DNA of 64,000 nucleotides from Candidatus Planktophila lacus. Lineage in GTDB: Bacteria; Actinomycetota; Actinomycetes; Nanopelagicales; Nanopelagicaceae. The notes under the pieces are model-generated. The model was given only the letters and a program-made list of their open reading frames with translations, was not told the origin of the DNA and did no database searches. The stretch covers positions 1,054,001 through 1,118,000 of the forward strand of contig NZ_CP016780.1 of assembly GCF_002288325.1 (NCBI RefSeq). Direction: 5' to 3'. Numbering within the stretch: the first letter of the stretch is position 1; each line of letters opens with the position of its first letter. The position numbers and the translations under genes were made by a program. Of this stretch, positions 51,989-63,571 are shown piece after piece.

Positions 51989-52960
51989 TTAGCTCTGGAA
52001 ATCCTCGCGGCGGACCCAGGTCACTAGCACCCAAAGAGAACAGACCAAGGTCACGATTAGGGCTGGGAAGTAGAAGATCTTGTCTACGAAGATGCCGATC
52101 GGTGGCGATCCTGGCATTAGCCCGCGAAGTGAGATCAAAGAATAGGTAAGTGCTGCAGCCCATGTAAGGGAGGAAAGCGTTGGTGGGCGCTGTCCGGTAA
52201 CCACCATGTAAGTCATGATCGTCACCGAAATCATCGCTGTGATCATAAGTAACAAAATGATTGTTACGAGCAACTTAGTTGAATTAGAGCGAACTGCTTC
52301 AAATACTGAAGAAGATTGGCCGTTGTTAAATTCATCTACGGCCATATCAAATGACTTTGCATCATCCATTTTCACCGTTGTAAAGGCATCGTTCCAAAGG
52401 CCGTGGATCATATGGATATCAAAAGTGTCGATCTTCTTTGTGTAATCCAGTGGCAAGATGTTTAGCGTTGCTTGATCGCCATCTTCTAATGTGCCAATCG
52501 CGCTCATTGGTATCTCAAATGAATACTTATCCATTGGATACCAGCCCACATCAGAACGTGCACCAGCACCTGGTTGCTCATCTATCTGAACGTCAAAGCC
52601 ACCGGTCGGAACATCTTTCTTAAAGCTATAGGTATTACTTCCACCATTGCTGGCACCGATCACTGAGTCAACAACTAAATCGACATCTTGGCTCGGCACC
52701 CAGCCACTCTTTAAGCGATAACCAACATCATCGCTATTAGGCCATGGCAGAACACGCGCATTTGCCGTTCCCTCAAGTGGATTAACGCCTGTTACCTGCA
52801 CCAATAGTTCCAGGCGATTATCAGAGCTCATCTCAATTAACTTGTCGTCAATTGCCACTGCATCATCTGCTGGGCTCTGTGAAATAACCACAACTATTCC
52901 GAGATAGGCGACCGTGATCAAGATAAAGGTCTGAAAGAACTTGGTGCGGAAAACTTTCAC
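51989..52960 (-). CDS. membrane protein resembling DUF4436
   Basis: A 323-residue protein, GTG start. One N-terminal helix (about 9-27), a large outside domain (28-225), then three helices (about 230-255, 264-285, 293-315) and a short charged tail. Topology and size resemble the DUF4436 family of Actinomycetota; this is judged by eye. The gene begins eight bases after the sixth secreted paralogue and would be the last gene of that operon, which makes it a candidate membrane partner of the secreted proteins. Confidence 0.6.
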   Translation of the reverse strand: MKVFRTKFFQTFILITVAYLGIVVVISQSPADDAVAIDDKLIEMSSDNRLELLVQVTGVNPLEGTANARVLPWPNSDDVGYRLKSGWVPSQDVDLVVDSVIGASNGGSNTYSFKKDVPTGGFDVQIDEQPGAGARSDVGWYPMDKYSFEIPMSAIGTLEDGDQATLNILPLDYTKKIDTFDIHMIHGLWNDAFTTVKMDDAKSFDMAVDEFNNGQSSSVFEAVRSNSTKLLVTIILLLMITAMISVTIMTYMVVTGQRPPTLSSLTWAAALTYSLISLRGLMPGSPPIGIFVDKIFYFPALIVTLVCSLWVLVTWVRREDFQS

Positions 52961-52968
52961 TAGAGCCC

Positions 52969-54705
52969 CTACTTCTTCTTATAGCCAGCAGGGCACTTTG
53001 GTTTTACCGCAGTGACTTTCTTGCTGGTCTTTCCTTTGATACATGTAATTGTGACAGCCTTTGCAACTGGTTTAGTAGAGGCGCTCGGGGTCGCAAGAGG
53101 GTCAACTTCTTGGGAGAGCTTAACTTTGATGATTGGTGCTGAAAATTCAAAGTTGTTTGCCTTTAGATACAACCAACCGCTCTTCTCACCAACAATTACA
53201 GTTGCAACCTGAGCCTCACCATTTGAGTTAACTACTGAAACTTCTGCGTTAACGGGTGCGCTTGAAAAACCATATATGCACCTAGCTACCTCTGAGCGAA
53301 TGACTAAGTTGTACTGCCCCCGCATAACTGATCCATCGGACATTAAGTGTGGTGCTGCTACTTGATAAGTGAGCGTTCCTGATTTGAATGCAGGAGGTCC
53401 GGCAGAGTAAGTCGTCGCATTTGTCATCAGAACACCATTGATTTGATTAGATTTAGCAAAGCATGCATCCGCACCGTTCATCTCTGATTTCGACAAAGTG
53501 CGAATCGACCAGGTATTTATGTTCGCACTCGCTTTGTCATTAACAGCTGGAAGCCATGCTTTGAGCTCTTGTATAGAACTAACTCCCGATGGAGGAGGGC
53601 TACCTACAAGAGTGTTTTTCAATGGATCTTCGGAACACCATCTGCAGCCATACGTAGTTCCGGGGAATCCACCCTTTAAATAGATATCTTTCAAATTCTT
53701 AGAAAGACTTTGCCACGTTTGTGATATTCCGATTACTGGCACTCGAGTAGTAGTGCCGGTAATCGATAAGCGAACTGCCGGCTTAGGACTAATAGATTCG
53801 ATAGTAATTGTTGGGTTATCTAAACGTCCATGCATCCACCCCGAAGGTGAACTAGAAAGTCGAACTGTGGCAGTGAATTCAACGTCCGCTGGAATTGCAT
53901 GTCGAGTTGCACAAAGTGCATCCCCTGACATAACGCAATCCAGTGTTTCGCCTTCGTAAGGTGGATAAACTCCTACAGCTCCTAAGAAGGGCCTCTTAGT
54001 TTTCTCATCAAATTTCTGCAACACGGATGCCGATCCATCATCAATTGGGGAGTTCGGATCTGATCCACTCCTGTGCACCCCAAGTGGCGCTTTTGATGCC
54101 GCAATAATTGATAAAGCAAATGCAGTATTTGTGAATTGCTCTTGCTTGACGGTTCTACTTCCGCGAAGCCCTGCATCTACAAAATAATCACTACCGCCTT
54201 TATGTTCTAGGCCGATGAACTTCCATAAACCGCCAGAGCTTGCCTCTGGGAGTCGCTCGGAAGATTTGGAAGCATAAGTCGTGTTTATCTTCTTTGGAAA
54301 TACTTCAATAAATTGTCCCTTTATCTCCACCCCCGCTTTTTTCGCGGAAATGCCCTCTAAACAATCAAGAGAATCAGCCGAAGAGCAGACACTTAAACGA
54401 GTAAAGAATTCGAATGTACCCGAATCTTGCTTGCACTTTGAATCTGAAGTAGAAGAACAAAGAAGCGTTCCTTCACTTCCCTCCCATCCCGCTGAATTTC
54501 CTTTCCACGCTAAATAAGGGGCGCCTGCATCAAGGGATTGGGTGCTGCTATCTCTAAATTTTATGTTCACCTGTCCTTGCAATGGCAAGTCAGGTGGAAT
54601 GTATCCCTCATCAACTATGCCGTCTGCGGCGTGCACCAATGAACTACTATTAGAAAAAGATGAAAGAGTTAAGACCAGCGCGATAAAAAAGGATGACTTT
54701 TTCAC
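52969..54705 (-). CDS. secreted tandem paralogue 6 of 6, unknown function
   Basis: 578 residues, GTG start, signal peptide cleaved near LVHA/ADG. Two C-x7-C pairs lie 15 residues apart (CSSTSDSKC and CSSADSLDC), followed by a GLEHKGGSDYFV element, the GWMHGR motif near residue 284, TNATTYSAGPPAF, YQVAAPH, and VARCIYGFSSAPV. After a short Pro/Thr/Ser linker comes the family tail ending CPAGYKKK. No similarity to a known enzyme is recognised. Eight bases separate it from both paralogue 5 and the DUF4436-like gene. Confidence 0.9.
   Translation of the reverse strand: MKKSSFFIALVLTLSSFSNSSSLVHAADGIVDEGYIPPDLPLQGQVNIKFRDSSTQSLDAGAPYLAWKGNSAGWEGSEGTLLCSSTSDSKCKQDSGTFEFFTRLSVCSSADSLDCLEGISAKKAGVEIKGQFIEVFPKKINTTYASKSSERLPEASSGGLWKFIGLEHKGGSDYFVDAGLRGSRTVKQEQFTNTAFALSIIAASKAPLGVHRSGSDPNSPIDDGSASVLQKFDEKTKRPFLGAVGVYPPYEGETLDCVMSGDALCATRHAIPADVEFTATVRLSSSPSGWMHGRLDNPTITIESISPKPAVRLSITGTTTRVPVIGISQTWQSLSKNLKDIYLKGGFPGTTYGCRWCSEDPLKNTLVGSPPPSGVSSIQELKAWLPAVNDKASANINTWSIRTLSKSEMNGADACFAKSNQINGVLMTNATTYSAGPPAFKSGTLTYQVAAPHLMSDGSVMRGQYNLVIRSEVARCIYGFSSAPVNAEVSVVNSNGEAQVATVIVGEKSGWLYLKANNFEFSAPIIKVKLSQEVDPLATPSASTKPVAKAVTITCIKGKTSKKVTAVKPKCPAGYKKK
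52971..53091 (-). repeat. direct repeat: 3' end of paralogue 6, copy of 54716-54836
   Basis: These 121 bases and those at 54716-54836 differ at only about a dozen positions by eye (near 90% identity) and encode the linker end and the two-cysteine tail of paralogues 6 and 5. Flanking parts of the two genes are far less alike, which suggests recent duplication or gene conversion limited to the tail. Confidence 0.75.
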
Positions 54706-54713
54706 GTACCTGC

Positions 54714-56480
54714 CTACTTCTTCTTATAGCCAGCCGGACACTTTGGTTTTACCGCCGTCACCTTTTTACTGGTCTTGCCTTTGATACATGTAATTGTGAC
54801 AGCCTTCGCAACCGGTTTGGCTGAGGCGCTCGGGGTTGGAGTAGCAGATGCAGTAGGAGTTGGTGTTGGCGCTGGTGCATCTTGTTCAAGTTTTACCTTG
54901 ATAGTTGGTGATGAATAAGTAAATCCACCTGCAGAAAGATAGAGCCAGCCGTTCTTCTCACCAAGAATTTCAGTTGCGACCTTTTGATTTCCTTGATCAT
55001 TAACAATTGAAAGCTCAGCCCTAATTGGTGCGCTAGTAAATCCATAAACGCATCGAGCAACATCTGAGCGCATAATCAAGTCATAAGTTCCAAGGAATTC
55101 ATCACCCTTTGTTGTGAAGTGAGGTGCGGCTACTTTATATTCAAGAGTGCCTTCACCCTTATTTAGAGATGGCGGCCCAGCGGAATATTGAGTTGCATTT
55201 GTTGTGACAATTCCGGTTACACCTTTATCGCCACTGGTGAAGCACTGCGAAGCACCTTGAGTTTCATTTTCATCAAGTGTACGTACCGACCATGTACCCA
55301 TGAGAGTTGTTGCCTTATCCCCCACAAAAGGTAGCCACACCTTTAATTGATCCATGCCAAATTTACTTGAAGCCGAAGGAGCAATGATCACATTTCTCGT
55401 CATTGGATCTTCAGTACAGGCGCTACGTCCACAACCTTGCGGCGCTCCATTTGAATTTGGAGATCGAAGTGCGACCTCTGGCTTGTATCCACCTGTTTTA
55501 ATGTCGTACTCATCTTTGAGTGCTTGTGGCATCTCTGGATAGCGATACATCTTATAAACCACTGGAACGGCGACAGGATTTGCTGCGATATAGAAGGAAT
55601 ATCCACTGCTAATTTCGGTAAATGACACGTCTGGCTTTGCAATTCTGCCGTGCAACCAGCCCTTTGGCTTATTTTGAAGCTTTAGCTTTATATAGAACTT
55701 TTTATCGGCAGGGAATGAATATCTCTGAGCGCACAATCTTTCTTTAGCGCTACCTGCCACACAGAAGCTAGTTCCAGAAAAACCGAAGCTAGCAAATCGC
55801 CATTGACCAGCAGGATGACCATCACCGGCGCCTTTCGACATTGACATACCAGAATCAATTTCTTGGATTGCACTATCGCCAGATTCGAGTTTCACCGGAA
55901 AAATCTCGATATTCAAAGCTTGTAAATCTGCCCCATTCGCTTTATTCAGCGTGCCCTGCGTCAGTGCTGATACGTAATACAAGGTTCCACCGTCGTGTGG
56001 TGCACTCGGTAAATCAAAGATACTTCCCGTGGCACCAAACGGTAACCGTAATTTCTCGGATGCTTCAAATTTGTTTAGCGCCTCATTAGGAAAGTATCGC
56101 GAAAAAGCGGCCTTAGTTGTTTCACCACCGGAACTAATCACACCAAAATCTTCAATGCAGTAGACCGTACTAATAGTTCCGCACACAGGCAGCATCGATT
56201 TAAAATCGAGTGATCCTGCGGTGCAATTAGGGTCTTCTGCGCTCTTACATGTTGGATCTTTATAAGCATCGCTTTGGTACTTCTGAAAATCAATCAAATA
56301 TGAGGCTGGTGTTCCTGGAGGGGAATCCAAGAATCTCTGAATATGCATACCGCGATCCGCATCGTTCGGAACGGCCCAGCTTCGTCCCGCATCTCCGACC
56401 GTTTCACCTGCAGCAACTACGGCGGAAGAGCCACCAAATACAAATGCGATGGCAACGATTATTGAAGTTAGTTTTTTCAT
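54714..56480 (-). CDS. secreted tandem paralogue 5 of 6, unknown function
   Basis: 588 residues with a signal peptide (KKLTSIIVAIAFVFGGSSA). Cysteine pairs CKSAEDPNC and CGTISTVYC are 13 residues apart. GWLHGR lies near residue 275, then TNATQYSAGPP, YKVAAPHF and VARCVYGFTSAP. The linker before the tail is an almost pure Pro/Thr/Ala/Ser repeat (PAPTPTPTASATPTPSASA), the longest of the set, suited to span a cell wall. The last 121 coding bases are about 90% identical to those of paralogue 6, although the rest has diverged. Confidence 0.9.
   Translation of the reverse strand: MKKLTSIIVAIAFVFGGSSAVVAAGETVGDAGRSWAVPNDADRGMHIQRFLDSPPGTPASYLIDFQKYQSDAYKDPTCKSAEDPNCTAGSLDFKSMLPVCGTISTVYCIEDFGVISSGGETTKAAFSRYFPNEALNKFEASEKLRLPFGATGSIFDLPSAPHDGGTLYYVSALTQGTLNKANGADLQALNIEIFPVKLESGDSAIQEIDSGMSMSKGAGDGHPAGQWRFASFGFSGTSFCVAGSAKERLCAQRYSFPADKKFYIKLKLQNKPKGWLHGRIAKPDVSFTEISSGYSFYIAANPVAVPVVYKMYRYPEMPQALKDEYDIKTGGYKPEVALRSPNSNGAPQGCGRSACTEDPMTRNVIIAPSASSKFGMDQLKVWLPFVGDKATTLMGTWSVRTLDENETQGASQCFTSGDKGVTGIVTTNATQYSAGPPSLNKGEGTLEYKVAAPHFTTKGDEFLGTYDLIMRSDVARCVYGFTSAPIRAELSIVNDQGNQKVATEILGEKNGWLYLSAGGFTYSSPTIKVKLEQDAPAPTPTPTASATPTPSASAKPVAKAVTITCIKGKTSKKVTAVKPKCPAGYKKK
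54716..54836 (-). repeat. direct repeat: 3' end of paralogue 5, copy of 52971-53091
   Basis: Partner of the repeat at 52971-53091. The corresponding ends of paralogues 2-4 are similar in protein but clearly more different in DNA. Confidence 0.75.
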
Positions 56481-56484
56481 ATCT

Positions 56485-58230
56485 CTATCTCTTCTTATAT
56501 CCGGCTGGGCACTTAGGGTTTACTGCAGTAATTTTTTTGGTGGTTTTACCTTTAATGCAAGAGATGGATGTCTTCTTCTGCACAGCTGGCTTAACAGCAG
56601 GAACTGGCGTTGGACTTGCCTCAGGATTTGGAGTCGCAACAACAACTGGCTTCTCTTGAGAGAGTTTTACCTTCACTACTGGATTCGAGAAAGTAAATCC
56701 GTTTGCAGAAAGCTTTAACCAACCACCTTTTTCGGTGAGAGACGTTGTTGCAACGCGCGCTTGGCCATCTGAAGATGTAACAGAAACTGTGGCCTGAATT
56801 GGAGCATCTGTGAAACCGTAAAGGCAGCGCGCAACCTGTGCATTAATAACTAAGTTATATGAACCCAGAAATTCTTTACCGTCCGGCAAGTAATGCGGCG
56901 CAGCTACTTTGTAATCCAAAGATTCTTCGCTCTTGTTAAATACAGGTGGGCCGGATAAATACTGGGTCGCATTGGTGCTAACAAATCCGCTTAAATTCGA
57001 AATGTTCCGATAGCAAACATCGCTTGTTCCATCAGAGCCCATTGTTTCCCAACGCCAAATTGTTGGAGCTTTGCTTGCCTTGTCTTTCAAAGAAGGCATC
57101 CATGCTAAAAATTCATCCATGGACTCTTGATCGGGTCGCAAGAAGCGAAGTACTGATACCCAGAATTCTGAAGCACATCCATTTGTTGCCGCGCCGCCGG
57201 TTGGATCGTTAGTACATCCAAAGCCAGCTCCGCCAACAGGTTGTCTTACCTTTGAATAGAATTCTGCCATTGACTTAGTTACTTCGGATTTCTTAATCCA
57301 TCCGTACGCACTTGGGACCAGAATAGGGTTTCCTTGAATAGAGACAACTTGATTGCCGCTCGAATCCAAACTAATTTCGGAAGTTACACCATCCATACGC
57401 CCATGCAGCCAGCCTTTAACGGGGTTAGATAATCGCAACTTGAATCCGAATTGTGCATTCAGCGGAAGTGGGTACGGTTGTGCACATTCTGTGCCCGAAT
57501 AAATTGGACAAGCCACAGTTGGGTTTGTCCAAGCGCCTAAACTCAAATCCAACTTGTTGTACCAATTCAGCGATGTTTGAATGCCTGGCAAACTATTATT
57601 TTTGGATTCAACCTTTACTGCGTAAATCGAAGCTCTGATATTTGGCGCATCAAATTTACTTGAGTTTGGAAGACGATAACCATCTGCGGTAACGACAACT
57701 AAATATTTATTTCCGCCAGCATGTGGAAGTCCCGGAATCGTAATCAGCGGCGCAGATCCACCCGATGGCAGTCCTACAGTTGAATCCCCTTTGAAATCTC
57801 CTGCACGCACGCCTGGAAATTGTTCTTTAGACGAGATTTCTAAGTTTGTCCCATCCTGATTTTTGACCGTTATTTCTGAAATACAGTCGGTTGAATCAGC
57901 AGTAGCGCAAATGCCTAGTTGAGCTTTGTATTGAAAGACTGATGCACCAACACATGCAGTGTCAGAGAGTGAGTTACAGAAACCAACACCCGTAACTTTG
58001 CTAACACCTATCTCATTTCCATCACTTTTCTTCCCAACTAGATAGTTGATATTTGTTGGGTATTCGCCTAAACCATTTGCTGACAAGCCGTAAGTTGGAA
58101 ATAACTTCGGACTATCGGCAGGCATCTCAAGAACGTACTGTTCATCAGGTATTTCTGCACCAGTCGCCGGAATCGCAATTCCTACGAGAACTACGGTTGA
58201 TAAAAATGCCGATAATAGTTTTTTCTTCAT
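56485..58230 (-). CDS. secreted tandem paralogue 4 of 6, unknown function
   Basis: 581 residues with a signal peptide ending near PATGA, then EIPDEQ, which resembles the start of mature paralogues 2 and 3. Cysteine pairs CNSLSDTAC and CATADSTDC are 14 residues apart; IPGLPHAGGNKYLVV, YPLPLNAQFGFKLRLS, GWLHGR, TNATQYLSGPPVF, YKVAAPHYLPDG and VARCLYGFTDAP follow. It ends with a Pro-rich linker and the two-cysteine tail (CPAGYKKR). Its start lies four bases inside the end of paralogue 3. Confidence 0.9.
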   Translation of the reverse strand: MKKKLLSAFLSTVVLVGIAIPATGAEIPDEQYVLEMPADSPKLFPTYGLSANGLGEYPTNINYLVGKKSDGNEIGVSKVTGVGFCNSLSDTACVGASVFQYKAQLGICATADSTDCISEITVKNQDGTNLEISSKEQFPGVRAGDFKGDSTVGLPSGGSAPLITIPGLPHAGGNKYLVVVTADGYRLPNSSKFDAPNIRASIYAVKVESKNNSLPGIQTSLNWYNKLDLSLGAWTNPTVACPIYSGTECAQPYPLPLNAQFGFKLRLSNPVKGWLHGRMDGVTSEISLDSSGNQVVSIQGNPILVPSAYGWIKKSEVTKSMAEFYSKVRQPVGGAGFGCTNDPTGGAATNGCASEFWVSVLRFLRPDQESMDEFLAWMPSLKDKASKAPTIWRWETMGSDGTSDVCYRNISNLSGFVSTNATQYLSGPPVFNKSEESLDYKVAAPHYLPDGKEFLGSYNLVINAQVARCLYGFTDAPIQATVSVTSSDGQARVATTSLTEKGGWLKLSANGFTFSNPVVKVKLSQEKPVVVATPNPEASPTPVPAVKPAVQKKTSISCIKGKTTKKITAVNPKCPAGYKKR

Positions 58231-59870
58231 TTCTTCTTATACCCCGTTGGACACTTTGGATTGACGGCTGTTACTTTCTTAGTTGTCTTACCCTTTACAC
58301 ATGTAATTGAGGTTTTCTTTGCAGCAGCTGGTTTTGTGGCAGCTGGAGTCTGGGCAGGCGTTGGCGTACCTTCTTGCGACAGTCTTACTTTGATCGTTGG
58401 GTTTGAATAAGTGAAACCTTTAGCTGAAAGACGTAGCCAATTGTTTTTCTCGGATACGAGAGTTGTAGCTTTCTTGGCTTCGCCATCTGCATAAACAACG
58501 CTTAGCGTTGCCTGAATTGGGGCGCTGGTGAATCCGTAGATACAACGTGCAATATCTGAACGAATCGCTAGGTCATAAGTTCCAATTTGCACTTGGCCTT
58601 TAGAGTCGTAATGCGGTGAAGCGACTTTGTATGCCAAGTCTCCGTTTTGGAACTTCGGTGGCCCGGCAATATAGGCATTTGAGTTGGTGGTAACCATTCC
58701 GGCAACACCTGAATCTCCAATGCATTTCGCATAATCTTGATAACCCTGCATAGTTCTAAATGACCATGTTGATACGGTGGCGTAAGCCTTATCTTTAGCC
58801 ACACCCACCCAGAGCATGTAACGTTCGAAGAATTTATCGTCAAATGAAGGATTGCGTTCATCCATTACCGCTTGAGTTTTTCGATCTTTCGAATCTCCGA
58901 TGAAATAAGCAACACCTGCAAATTGGTTTCCACGAGAGATGAACTCTTCTTGAATCATTGAATCTAACTTTGCTGGCAGGTCCGTATTTTTTGCCCAAAC
59001 AGCAAGAGTAGGAACGGTGATTGCCGAACCTTCAATATTGATAAGTGTCTGTCCATCACTGGTTTTTTCGCTGCTGATTTCAGGCGAACTCAAGCGGCCA
59101 TGGAACCAGCCAATGATCTTGGCACCGGTTTTAACAGAAACTTTAAATGAGGAATCCTGCGGGAATGGCCACCGCTTGAAGCAGTTGGTCTTAGTAGTAA
59201 AGAAACAGGTATCCATCTGCGCGCCATCGATTGGAAGCTTAGATACTGCATAAAGACCGACATCCAGATTTGATGGGCCTGTTCCAGCAACATTTTGAAA
59301 TTCAGCATTTAACTTTGGAATAAGTAGATACTGATCTCCTCCTTGGTGAGTCATCCCAGGTATTGTCCAAATTGAAACGTTTCCGCTATTTGGAATACCC
59401 CTCTGGATATCTCCCGTAAATGGCGTGTTATATCTATTTCGAGAATTTGTACTCATCTGTGAAAAAGAAGAAGTTAGAGTTTCGACAAGTGTTGCAGATA
59501 TTAATGGGTTTTCTCCAATGCGGCCTGAAAGGCTGACTACGCAATCCCTTGTTCTCAAATCAGAACAAGGAGAGAGCGGGGTTTCGAAGAAGAGGTAATT
59601 GCTGCTCTTGCAAGGTTCTTCTTGCGAAGATAGACACGTGGTAGCCCCACTATCGGCAAAGTTCGCACTCCCCCATGCTTCTACATAGGTAAAGGCACGA
59701 TAAAGAGTTCTTTGATCATCGTAATAAGCACCGGAGTAGCCACCAGTGTTTTCAACTGGAGGACGCGGGGTAGTTAATTGTTCATCTGGAATATCTGCAG
59801 CGATGACTGGAGAAAATACTCCTAGTGTTAAAGCAAATACTGTGCAAATTGCAATGAATAACTTTTTCAT
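58227..59870 (-). CDS. secreted tandem paralogue 3 of 6, unknown function
   Basis: 547 residues, the shortest of the set, with a signal peptide (KKLFIAICTVFALTLGVF) and DIPDEQL at the mature start. Cysteine pairs CLSSQEEPC and CSDLRTRDC are 14 residues apart; IPGMTHQGGDQYLLI, GWFHGRLSSPE, YKVASPHYDSKG and IARCIYGFTSAP follow. The tail is CVKGKTTKKV...CPTGYKKK. It overlaps both neighbours by four bases (ATGA), as expected for coupled translation. Confidence 0.9.
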   Translation of the reverse strand: MKKLFIAICTVFALTLGVFSPVIAADIPDEQLTTPRPPVENTGGYSGAYYDDQRTLYRAFTYVEAWGSANFADSGATTCLSSQEEPCKSSNYLFFETPLSPCSDLRTRDCVVSLSGRIGENPLISATLVETLTSSFSQMSTNSRNRYNTPFTGDIQRGIPNSGNVSIWTIPGMTHQGGDQYLLIPKLNAEFQNVAGTGPSNLDVGLYAVSKLPIDGAQMDTCFFTTKTNCFKRWPFPQDSSFKVSVKTGAKIIGWFHGRLSSPEISSEKTSDGQTLINIEGSAITVPTLAVWAKNTDLPAKLDSMIQEEFISRGNQFAGVAYFIGDSKDRKTQAVMDERNPSFDDKFFERYMLWVGVAKDKAYATVSTWSFRTMQGYQDYAKCIGDSGVAGMVTTNSNAYIAGPPKFQNGDLAYKVASPHYDSKGQVQIGTYDLAIRSDIARCIYGFTSAPIQATLSVVYADGEAKKATTLVSEKNNWLRLSAKGFTYSNPTIKVRLSQEGTPTPAQTPAATKPAAAKKTSITCVKGKTTKKVTAVNPKCPTGYKKK

Positions 59871-61561
59871 TTCTTCTTATACCCCGTTGGGCACTTTGGA
59901 TTAACTGCGGTTACTTTCTTGGAAGTCTTTCCCTTTACACAAGTAATCGTCGCTTTTTTAGCGGTGGAAGGTTTAACAGTTGCAACTGGTGAAGGAGTTG
60001 GTGCCGGCGCTGCCTCTTGGGTTAGCTTCACTCGGACGGTTGGTGAAGAGAAGGTGAAGTTATAAGCAGCAAGATTAAGGAAGCCATCTTTTTCGCGAAC
60101 CAAAGTTGTGGCAATGTTTGGTTCTCCTGATTCGGAGACGATTGAGATAGTTGCACCAATCGGTGCTTGCGAGAATCCGTATAGGCAGCGGGCAACTGCT
60201 GAACTCATAACAAGGTCATAGGTTCCCTTGAACACTTCACCTGATGAAGTTAAATGGGGTGCGGCAACCTTGTAATCCAATACGCCTTCACCCTTATCAA
60301 AGCTAGGTGGGCCATCTAGGTACTGGGCTGCGTTTGTCGACACAACGCCGGCAAAGCCATTTCCTTTAGCAAAGCAAGGATTCTGATTGGGATCACCAAA
60401 GGAAATCATGGTCTTTAACATCCACGCCGTTGGCATGCCTTGAGCCTTATCGCCAATCACTGGAAGCCAATTAACAAACTCTTTCATTGTGTTGGCATCA
60501 TTGAAAGCGTTTCCGTCACGGCGAATTGCAATTTCAGAGAGAGATTGATCTTTGGTTCCAAAAGATACGCTTCCATAATTTGGCATTCCAGCGTAATACG
60601 CCTTCAGGCTTGTAGGCATCGCATCGTTATTTACCCAAACGTCAATTAGTGGAACCTTGATCGCATTTGCCTGAACTGTAAGGAGTTGCGTTCCGGAGGC
60701 TTCTTTTTCGATCGTGATATTCGGTGCTTTCATTCGCCCGTGTAGCCATCCGTCAAGTTTGTTATTCATTCTAAATTGCAGACCGAAGGCAACGTTTTGT
60801 GGAAGTGGATAACCCTTAGCGCATTCAGTTTCAAAGCTCATTACGCAGCGACCGGACTCTGGTGGATTTCCTACTGGTGCACCGATGGTCCAATCAACGC
60901 TTGGATACTGCTTTGGATCGATTGACATTGAGTTAAACCCAAAGGCACCTTTTTCGATTGCGACTGCGAAAATTCCAGTCTGCATACGTTGCATGTTAAA
61001 TTTTGCAGTCGGTGAGTTATTGGCATCACGAACGCCAACCATCTCAGATTTAACTAGATACAAATCTCCACCGGCATGAGGTGCGCCAGGGATTCGAATC
61101 AGAATGGCTCCCCCGCCCGTAGGGAGATTTTGTGAAGCATCTCCGACAAAGTCAAACTTTCCTTTGTCTGCAAAGTTGCCCGCAGGGATGATCTCTAACT
61201 CTTTACCGTCATCTGTTTTTGCGAAGACCTTAGTTAGACAATCAACAGTAGTATTTGCATCGCAAATCTGTAGAACGGCGCGGTAGAACTGTCGAATTGT
61301 GAACTCGCAGCCAGCTTGCGAGAGTTTTGAACAGGCAGTGACGCTCTCTACTTTTCCGACTGAATCGAGCTTAAAGCTGATAAGTCCCGAATTGAATCGA
61401 GTGATTTCAGCAGAATCTTGTAGTAAATAGCCTTGGTGATTCTTGGCTGGGGCAGGTGACGATAAATGCTGTTCATCATATGAATCTGCGCCATGGGCAA
61501 GCGTTGGAGCAATTAGCGCTACCGAAATCAGTAGAACTACGAATTTTCCTAAACGCTTCAC
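59867..61561 (-). CDS. secreted tandem paralogue 2 of 6, unknown function
   Basis: 564 residues, GTG start, signal peptide ending near LAHGA, mature start DSYDEQ. Cysteine pairs CSKLSQAGC and CDANTTVDC are 14 residues apart; IPGAPHAGGDLYLV, CAKGYPLP, GWLHGRMKAPN, TNAAQYLDGPPSF, YKVAAPHLTSSG and VARCLYGFSQAP follow. After the Pro/Thr-rich linker comes the tail CPTGYKKK. Separated from paralogue 1 by 123 bases with a strong hairpin. Confidence 0.9.
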   Translation of the reverse strand: MKRLGKFVVLLISVALIAPTLAHGADSYDEQHLSSPAPAKNHQGYLLQDSAEITRFNSGLISFKLDSVGKVESVTACSKLSQAGCEFTIRQFYRAVLQICDANTTVDCLTKVFAKTDDGKELEIIPAGNFADKGKFDFVGDASQNLPTGGGAILIRIPGAPHAGGDLYLVKSEMVGVRDANNSPTAKFNMQRMQTGIFAVAIEKGAFGFNSMSIDPKQYPSVDWTIGAPVGNPPESGRCVMSFETECAKGYPLPQNVAFGLQFRMNNKLDGWLHGRMKAPNITIEKEASGTQLLTVQANAIKVPLIDVWVNNDAMPTSLKAYYAGMPNYGSVSFGTKDQSLSEIAIRRDGNAFNDANTMKEFVNWLPVIGDKAQGMPTAWMLKTMISFGDPNQNPCFAKGNGFAGVVSTNAAQYLDGPPSFDKGEGVLDYKVAAPHLTSSGEVFKGTYDLVMSSAVARCLYGFSQAPIGATISIVSESGEPNIATTLVREKDGFLNLAAYNFTFSSPTVRVKLTQEAAPAPTPSPVATVKPSTAKKATITCVKGKTSKKVTAVNPKCPTGYKKK

Positions 61562-61684: not shown

Positions 61685-63571
61685 CTACTTCTTCTTATAA
61701 CCTGCTGGACATGCTGGCTTAACTGCGGTGATCTTCTTTACAGCCTTGCCCTTAACGCATGTGATGGTTGTCTTGTTCAAGATCTTGGCAGCAGGCTTGT
61801 AGCCCTTCTTGATGCCGATCTTGAGCTTTGGACGTGAGTATTCAAAGCCAGATACATCGATGATGATTCGGCCGTTCTTCACGCTGATGTTCTTGAGGAA
61901 CGCTGCAGTTCCGCCTTCTTCTGTTGTTAGCGAGATTTCTAGAGCTGAAGCAGCATCATTTGGATTAGTCATACCCCAAAGAAGTGCAGCATCTGCTGTA
62001 GGAATTACCGCCTTGTAGAAGCCCTTGTTCACTGTCACACCATCTGGTGCAAAGTGAGGAGCAGCTGCGCGCCATGTGAATGCCTTATCCGCTTCGCTCC
62101 ATACTGGAGTTGAAAGCCCGCAGACACCGTTTGAACCAACGTACATTCCACCGGAAGTACCTTCAACACCGAAGCCGGAGTTGTCGTCGTTGGCTGCCAT
62201 AGCAATCATCTGGAATTGACGAACGTTGGCCTTTGATACGCCTTCTTCGCCTTCGCAATCCTTAACGTTCTTCGCAAGAGGAACGGTTACAGGAGTACCT
62301 GTGATTGAGATTGCGTTGTATTCGCCACCTGGCTCTTGCTTAACAACGATATCTGTACCAACAGCAACGGTAACGCCGGTCTGCATTTCGCCGACGCGAA
62401 CCTTAACTGTAATTACGATATCTGAATCAAGGCTGACTGCATATGCCTTGTTACCGACCTGGCCTGCGAGGTTGGTCTTCTTATCAGCACCTGTAAGTGT
62501 TGGAAGAACATCGACGAATAGCATGCTTGATACGAACTCGTTAGGAGTACGTGCTTCAACATAAAGTCCGTCATAACCAAGTGCGCCAAGGTTTAGACCT
62601 TGCCAATCAGGGTGTGTCCAGCGACCGACAAGTGTGCGACCGGCTTCAGCTGGTGTACCAACTGCAACGCCAGGTTCTGGAGCAAGTGGAGCTGTTGCAG
62701 CTAATTCAGTTGCTTCAGCAGTTGCGCTCTCAGTAGTTGGTGTTGTTGTGGTTGCAGCAGCTGCTGGATCTGCAGGAACTGCAGCAGGTGTTCCGGCAAC
62801 AGCCCATCCGTTAACAAGAGCATCGCGTGTAACCCAGATAGGAATGATGATTCCCTCTGTAGCCTTAAATGTCTTGGTAGCAGCATCGTAAGTTGTTCCC
62901 CATACTGGACGCTGTTGAGTTGCTGATAGTTCAGCAAGATCAATAAATGTCACGCCAGTAAAGTTAGCAATCTGCTTTGCTGCATCTGCTGCTGTTGGAT
63001 AGAAGAAGAAGAACTTAACTTCATTATCAAGCACGAAGGCAACTGAACCCTTGTAGCAAGCACCAAATGTTGATTTAGTTGATGACTTAGTCGCGTTATT
63101 CCAGCAATCCATTGGATAGCTATAGAAATCTAGCGGCTTATTAATGTCATAAGTCTTAGTTTTTGGATCAAACTTCGCACCCTGTTCTGGGTGATTAGCT
63201 GTCCCGAAAAGTGAAGAGAGATCCTGCATTACGTATTTGCCTGAAGCAAGTACATCGCGCTGGTATTGAGACATCCACCAGTTGTTGTCGATTACTTTTC
63301 CACCCTTGATCTGTGCAACTGGTGCAAAGAAATCAACTGGTGTCTTCTTAGCTGGAACTTCTGCTCCGCTAGGCACATAGGTCAAAGGAATTTTCTGTCC
63401 TGAACCTGTGGCAATTGTTACTGATTCGATGCAATAAATACCGTTTTGAATTACACAGGCATTCATTGGTGACTTAGGCAGGCGGATAGTTGCAGCACTT
63501 GCTGAAGTAGCAGTGAGCAATCCCGCGAGCATTGCTAGGGACGCAGCCCCAGCGATTAGCTTCTTTTTCAC
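61685..63571 (-). CDS. secreted tandem paralogue 1 of 6 (most divergent, first in operon)
   Basis: 628 residues, GTG start, signal peptide ending near SASA/ATI. Only one N-terminal C-x7-C pair (CVIQNGIYC) and no HGR motif, but the C-terminal domain aligns with the others (WRAAAPHFAPDG, then LLWGMTNPNDAASALEISL, FEYSRPKLKIGIKKG) and the tail is CPAGYKKK. It has an extra central segment and a Thr/Ala-rich stretch (about 265-310, including AAAATTTTPTTESATAEATE) absent from the others. Probably the founder or a specialised member. Its leader can fold over the ribosome binding site. Confidence 0.9.
   Translation of the reverse strand: MKKKLIAGAASLAMLAGLLTATSASAATIRLPKSPMNACVIQNGIYCIESVTIATGSGQKIPLTYVPSGAEVPAKKTPVDFFAPVAQIKGGKVIDNNWWMSQYQRDVLASGKYVMQDLSSLFGTANHPEQGAKFDPKTKTYDINKPLDFYSYPMDCWNNATKSSTKSTFGACYKGSVAFVLDNEVKFFFFYPTAADAAKQIANFTGVTFIDLAELSATQQRPVWGTTYDAATKTFKATEGIIIPIWVTRDALVNGWAVAGTPAAVPADPAAAATTTTPTTESATAEATELAATAPLAPEPGVAVGTPAEAGRTLVGRWTHPDWQGLNLGALGYDGLYVEARTPNEFVSSMLFVDVLPTLTGADKKTNLAGQVGNKAYAVSLDSDIVITVKVRVGEMQTGVTVAVGTDIVVKQEPGGEYNAISITGTPVTVPLAKNVKDCEGEEGVSKANVRQFQMIAMAANDDNSGFGVEGTSGGMYVGSNGVCGLSTPVWSEADKAFTWRAAAPHFAPDGVTVNKGFYKAVIPTADAALLWGMTNPNDAASALEISLTTEEGGTAAFLKNISVKNGRIIIDVSGFEYSRPKLKIGIKKGYKPAAKILNKTTITCVKGKAVKKITAVKPACPAGYKKK

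Follow-up and report, generated by a model that had tools for sequence, protein, structure and literature searches.

Five divergent proteins encoded side by side in a genome of Candidatus Planktophila (Nanopelagicaceae) carry, towards their N-termini, two pairs of cysteines, the partners being seven residues apart (C-x7-C). What do these pairs form, one compact site or two separate loops, and how have they been kept in proteins so different from each other? The genes were analysed in a window of 64,000 nucleotides (the whole stretch of DNA under study; NZ_CP016780.1, positions 1,054,001 to 1,118,000), part of a streamlined genome made up of a single contig of 1.38 Mb; among named organisms the closest is Ca. 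Planktophila lacus NZ_CP016769.1, whose version of the locus is called L073 below. The four cysteines, C1 to C4 in order, very probably bond locally, giving two independent disulfides (C1-C2 and C3-C4) that staple N-terminal loops of apparently exported paralogues.

Cysteine pairs in the window

Positions 52969-61561 are filled by five minus-strand open reading frames (ORFs), P2 to P6. On this strand the order is P1 (61685-63571), P2 to P6 (the last at 52969-54705), a DUF4436 gene (51989-52960) and ribosomal protein genes, the latter named as recognised from sequence. From P2 to the DUF4436 gene the packing is tight, with 4-base overlaps or gaps of less than 10 bases. The N-termini of P1 to P6 all consist of MK(K/R), a hydrophobic stretch and an end of small residues, as read off the translations rather than called by a signal-peptide predictor. 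The ORFs and cysteine loops are as follows.

59867..61561, minus strand: P2, 564 residues (ORF)
61307..61333, minus strand: P2 loop 1, C77-x7-C85 (sequence, alignment)
61238..61264, minus strand: P2 loop 2, C100-x7-C108 (both cysteines in all 83 homologues, see below)
60821..60847, minus strand: P2 loop 3, C239-x7-C247, absent from the initial annotation (sequence, alignment)
58227..59870, minus strand: P3, 547 residues (ORF)
59610..59636, minus strand: P3 loop 1, C79-x7-C87 (sequence)
59541..59567, minus strand: P3 loop 2, C102-x7-C110 (sequence)
56485..58230, minus strand: P4, 581 residues (ORF)
57952..57978, minus strand: P4 loop 1, C85-x7-C93 (sequence)
57883..57909, minus strand: P4 loop 2, C108-x7-C116 (sequence)
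54714..56480, minus strand: P5, 588 residues (ORF)
56223..56249, minus strand: P5 loop 1, C78-x7-C86 (sequence)
56157..56183, minus strand: P5 loop 2, C100-x7-C108 (sequence)
52969..54705, minus strand: P6, 578 residues (ORF)
54433..54459, minus strand: P6 loop 1, C83-x7-C91 (sequence)
54361..54387, minus strand: P6 loop 2, C107-x7-C115 (sequence)
63431..63457, minus strand: P1 loop, C39-x7-C47, equivalent of C3-C4 (hhalign, see below)

The double motif, reported by the initial annotation for P2 to P6, is present in 5/5 proteins, always within residues 77-116; the two pairs are 14, 14, 14, 13 and 15 residues apart (P2, P3, P4, P5 and P6, respectively). Chance yields it far more rarely, in 17 of 100,000 proteins obtained by composition-preserving shuffling of the five mature sequences, vs. 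5/5 observed. P1 had been said to hold the second pair only. This is right, since the surroundings of C39-C47 align with those of the second pair (hhalign probability 97, expectation value (E) 5.8e-11), not of the first (probability 7). Loops 1 and 2 are two of about five cysteine pairs per protein: a further C-x7-C lies in the middle of four of the five window proteins (C239/247 in P2), with an x9 spacing in P5, and there are, besides, a long pair (396/459 in P2) and a pair in a C-terminal tag (541/557).

The same spacing in all pairs, and the third x7 loop in mid-protein, might suggest that a single module was duplicated in tandem within the protein, an origin implied by the word "duplicated", which was applied to the loops at the outset. 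Duplication as an event found no support: the profiles of C1-C2 and C3-C4 fail to align (hhalign probability 13), and the third loop, C5-C6, scores 1 and 4 against the first two, whereas the P1 loop and C3-C4 reach 97. Such an origin is decidedly improbable, and internal duplication was rejected.

Cysteine pairing across homologues

Conservation was assessed in a set called A3, drawn from 188 complete, family-matching ORFs and made up of 83 non-redundant sequences, namely P2 and 82 others, 24-85% identical to P2. C3 and C4 are kept in 83/83 homologues. C1 and C2 are both present in 78, both absent in 5, and never found one without the other. Free loss of single cysteines, for which homologues were to be inspected, was thus seen at none of the four positions. 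The spacing, earlier described as invariant, is x7 throughout P2 to P6; outside the window it is mostly, not strictly, so. C1 and C2 are separated by x7 in 74/78 sequences, x8 in 3 and x5 in 1; C3 and C4 by x7 in 80/83, x8 in 1 and x11 in 2. The exact double motif, with a gap of 13-15 residues, is found in 62/83 homologues. Residues between the cysteines are unconserved, as had been noticed, the mean column entropy being 2.8 and 3.1 bits in the two loops, vs. 1.8 bits at residues 380-515 and 2.5 bits overall.

The number of mature cysteines (those after residue 35) ranges from 6 to 16, and is even in 83/83 homologues. Counts are even also in the 24/24 rows of A4, a set made up of P1 and its relatives, and in 137/138 members of a wider, redundant set; odd counts are found in 20/41 control ORFs located elsewhere in the window. 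Parity across the family is what paired disulfides would yield. On a quick tree, built without the ten cysteine columns, at least 20 changes in cysteine number are needed, and at least two in the C1C2 state. The state of an extra pair in the region 320-372 (no cysteine in 62 rows, two in 21) changed at least 10 times. Joint loss of C1 and C2 and even counts in 83 homologues support, in an indirect manner, the two small disulfide loops that had been proposed.

Five paralogues in one tightly packed array may look alike simply because they are closely related, the cysteine pattern being a trivial by-product. P3 to P6 are, however, only 34-41% identical to P2, and yet C3-C4 is found in 83/83 homologues and C1-C2 in 78/83; random loss of single cysteines, which would favour this view, is not seen at C1-C4. 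This explanation is scarcely credible. Over codons 51-150, nucleotide identity is 33-41% in the three paralogue pairs compared.

Four conserved cysteines, arranged in two evenly spaced pairs close together, are also reminiscent of a Cys4 site binding one metal ion, either zinc or an iron-sulfur cluster. Half of such a site would be dispensable, since C3-C4 is kept without C1-C2 in 5/83 homologues and in P1. The N-termini are signal-peptide-like, and the other cysteines too come and go in pairs. A metal site is therefore very improbable, and the presence of C3-C4 alone in the five homologues and P1 argues for local bonds. As P1 features just the equivalent of C3-C4, this pair is independent of C1-C2.

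Predicted structure and known families

The AlphaFold2 model of P2 is mostly beta, with a mean predicted local distance difference test (pLDDT) value of 88.5, a predicted template modelling score (pTM) of 0.85, and block means of 94-98 over residues 71-120. Strands are predicted at residues 71-76, 90-96 and 108-116; C77-C85 sits between the first and the second, C100-C108 between the second and the third. The P1 model is weaker (pLDDT 77.0, pTM 0.56), and its C47 is likewise among the first residues of a strand (46-54). The defined N-terminal module envisaged by the initial annotation is borne out as far as the loops lie between consecutive predicted strands, in a confidently modelled region. 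C3-C4 is, however, universal, and C1-C2 is missing from P1 and from 5/83 homologues.

The four cysteines fall within 31-33 residues, around three consecutive predicted strands, a setting in which crossed bonds (C1-C4 and C2-C3, or C1-C3 and C2-C4) could tie one compact knot. Proteins lacking C1 and C2 and keeping C3 and C4, as the lone C39-C47 of P1, would then be left with two unpaired thiols, unless the bonding had changed. Crossed bonds are accordingly judged improbable. With local disulfides, each bond would close a short loop at the passage from one strand to the next, in the beta-rich N-terminal region of an exported protein. C3-C4 would belong to a core that P1 also has, and C1-C2 would be an additional staple, found in most proteins of the P2-P6 type. 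These would be two of about five disulfides, forming three short loops, one long pair and one bond in a C-terminal hairpin tag, and would keep the scaffold in place while sequence varies in the loops and across much of the N-terminal half.

Pfam and NCBIfam searches of the N-terminal loops (residues 70-120) gave nothing above cut-off in P1 to P6. The nearest match in the loop region is VapA S-layer on residues 108-156 of P2 (10.8 bits vs. a cut-off of 200). Pfam matches elsewhere in P1 to P6 are all sub-threshold as well, the best being PF14299, Phloem protein 2 (PP2), in the C-terminal part. PF14299 is below the curated cut-off in P4 to P6 (14-17 bits vs. 25), has no match in P1 to P3, and matches 10/83 homologues at E <= 0.01 (best 1.9e-4). 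The Phloem protein 2 domain is lectin-like. The likeness concerns the C-terminal beta region of P4 to P6, but the matching stretch is far from the cysteine loops.

The sole Foldseek match of P2 with E < 0.001, 6lz1_A, has a template modelling (TM) score of 0.15, and is not credible; none was found for P1 below E 0.001. In a second structure comparison of P2 the best Z was 6.0, below the tool's own level of 8, over 92 C-terminal residues, the N-terminal part being barely covered. Sequence profiles searched against solved structures gave no match for A3, and one at E 0.91 for A4.

Family spread and variation of the locus

P2 matches at E <= 1e-20 were found in 69/296 Nanopelagicaceae genomes (including that of the window), distributed in 10/17 genera, and in none of 23 genomes of other families. 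The A4 profile, built on P1, matched 32/394 class-sampled genomes, 31 of which are Nanopelagicaceae. Most of these matches are short and confined to the tag region, at least 250 profile positions being covered in 10 genomes only; the match in the one genome outside Nanopelagicaceae is tag-only. The genome of the window has 20 P2 matches in 18 genes, and the tag was found 18 times. Full-length genes, P2-related or tag-bearing, typically encode ten or more paired cysteines. Titles and opening parts of abstracts in the open-access literature on Planktophila and disulfides, and on Nanopelagicales and secreted proteins, mention nothing about the P2-type family. No DUF4436 appears among the listed open-access matches for Planktophila or DUF4436. 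Both negatives are of open-access scope, and are no proof of absence from print.

The array is bordered by two conserved genes:

61685..63571, minus strand: P1, 628 residues, apparently exported, encoded by the conserved gene that opens the array, with 99% identity to its P. lacus counterpart (ORF)
51989..52960, minus strand: DUF4436 protein, encoded by the conserved gene that closes the array, with 98% identity to its P. lacus counterpart (Pfam PF14494, E 2e-20)

In seven loci the array runs from P1 to DUF4436, enclosing 5 paralogues in the window, 3 each in L073 and L074, 2 each in L075 and L098, and 1 each in L078 and L099. DUF4436 is upstream of P1 in four other loci (L079, L080, L091 and L105). 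Besides the window, 17 of the loci compared encode a relative of the DUF4436 protein, one being only 24% identical.

The three intervening genes of L073 are 84%, 97% and 40% identical to their best window matches (P2, P5 and P4, respectively), and P3 and P6 are the best match of no L073 gene. Synonymous divergence (dS) from L073 is 0.11 for P1 and 1.66, a saturated value, for P2; the ratio of nonsynonymous to synonymous divergence (dN/dS) is about 0.06 for both. In comparisons with two relatives, dN/dS was 0.03-0.09 in 8/9 cases and 0.01 in the ninth (rpsD); the four dS values above 1 are to be taken as saturated. Variation at the locus thus looks like the outcome of allele replacement and of gene gain or loss, with the proteins under purifying selection. 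The array would consist of paralogous exported proteins, with conserved P1 and DUF4436 genes at its ends and, in between, a reshuffling that alters both gene number and alleles.

The C-terminal tag

The 3' ends of P1 to P6 encode a tag, C-x15-C-P-x-G-Y-K-K-K/R, and form a direct repeat at the DNA level (repeat family D2), in 6 copies of 84 nucleotides:

52969..53052, minus strand: tag repeat at the C-terminal end of P6, one of six, the others ending P1 to P5

The basic tag would probably hold the exported proteins at the wall or the cell surface. A sortase is one gene not recognised, PF04203 having no match at E <= 0.01 in this genome (3 of 14 control genomes match).

The 84-nucleotide repeat is a possible recombination site. 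P5 and P6 share 91% identity in their tags, vs. 31-66% in the eleven 50-codon blocks that precede the final one, and 31-41% over the first 250 codons. The tag identity fits recombination at gene ends, and is suggestive only. Breakpoints at the repeats were not accepted as proof of tag-mediated recombination: tags are similar in any case, and alignments therefore extend into them.

Tags are found on other proteins also. In the genome of the window, L038:5343-6473 encodes 377 residues with a GDSGG motif and a C-terminal tag; it has no Pfam match at E <= 0.01, and matches P2 only at its end, which suggests from sequence that the tag may be a general module. The product of L124:4417-6111 features five immunoglobulin (Ig)-like repeats about 97 residues apart, with one C-x7-C pair each, and a P1-P6-type tag at the end. 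Bacterial Ig-like repeats of this type, 'YQW..C.......C..I.GAT', are widespread. Like P2 to P6, the protein is apparently exported and has C-x7-C pairs, but there is one pair per repeat, vs. two close pairs in a non-repetitive region, and L124 is above Ig-type Pfam cut-offs, which P2 to P6 are not. The likeness of the loops is one of spacing, with no demonstrated sequence relation.

A phage origin of the family was considered and rejected. P2 is unmatched in 50,697 phage records. Among viral contigs, 4/38 candidate stretches were confirmed, the matches, to a protease-like protein, being limited to residues 512-563 or 534-563. In these four contigs (L168:2352-3557, L169:2253-3503, L170:2129-3199 and L171:3951-5201) a GDSGS protein, which by its motif we take to be trypsin-like, has a signal-peptide-like start and ends with a host-type cysteine tag. 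A carbamoyltransferase gene lies near the tagged GDSGS protein in L170.

Probable disulfide formation and points of doubt

Disulfides would be made after export by a DsbA-type oxidase. The genome encodes a DsbA-like Thioredoxin_4 protein (E 7.3e-26) with the sequence FQCPAC (CPAC motif), and its gene comes directly after that of a membrane protein of the MauE/DoxX type, which contains a CxC pair. The two neighbours (L149:803-1974, near 576 kb) are a candidate disulfide-forming pair, the role of MauE/DoxX as re-oxidase being a guess. Thioredoxin_4 is found in all the 66 near-complete Nanopelagicaceae genomes surveyed, the present one included. Exported disulfide proteins of other Actinobacteria are reported to be folded by MdbA/DsbA with VKOR (PMC9974433, PMC11208910, PMC12421883). 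Compared with these, the genome of the window is alike in encoding apparently exported proteins with paired cysteines and a DsbA-like enzyme, and differs in lacking VKOR and DsbB matches and in having MauE/DoxX beside the DsbA-like gene instead. Of the oxidising surface claimed at first, oxidising export is plausible, given the signal-peptide-like N-termini and the CPAC protein, but neither VKOR nor DsbB was matched, and the surface location is putative.

Several points weigh against two local disulfides in exported proteins. Neither the VKOR nor the DsbB profile found a match in this genome (matches in 3/14 and 6/14 control genomes, respectively), and the re-oxidation step is therefore unexplained. 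VKOR is found in only 18 of the same 66 genomes, and Thioredoxin_4, occurring in all of them, is not specific to bearers of P2-type proteins. Structural support consists of model confidence and strand positions, not of Cys-Cys distances, and structure searches of the P2 and P1 models gave no reliable known fold. As to parity, the 41 control ORFs are hand-picked, whole and mostly cysteine-poor proteins, a rough yardstick only; the tree used to count cysteine changes is quick and has long branches. Even counts could stem in part from shared descent, the 20 changes arguing otherwise. L129:3122-5200, left out of A3 and the one exception among the 138 of the wider set, has an odd count with the cut at residue 35; its odd cysteine (42) may lie in an over-extended start. 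Diversifying selection by point mutation was dismissed, the low dN/dS (about 0.06) speaking against an arms race.

A broader picture may be drawn, and is rather doubtful as a whole. The P1-P6 locus would encode a set of disulfide-stapled envelope proteins that recombination shuffles and that meet phages, grazers or ligands; whole mature domains would be swapped between conserved ends coding for signal peptide and tag, and the many disulfides driven by an unrecognised oxidase pair, MauE/DoxX and its DsbA-like neighbour, in genomes lacking VKOR and DsbB.

Significance

The C-x7-C motif is an ordinary trait of exported, disulfide-stabilised proteins, and no new kind of module. More unusual are the complete pairing of cysteines in a divergent family, its apparent restriction, in the samples searched, to one bacterial family, the reshuffling of the locus, and a host in which neither VKOR nor DsbB can be recognised. 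Nanopelagicaceae are an abundant freshwater actinobacterial family, in which P2-type proteins are a large, uncharacterised family; a streamlined genome of 1.38 Mb retains 18 genes that are related to P2 or tag-bearing. The paired cysteines make it simple to test the fold, as well as the way in which a cell without recognisable VKOR or DsbB would make disulfides, and the variable locus, bounded by conserved genes, may encode the envelope parts that such cells alter.

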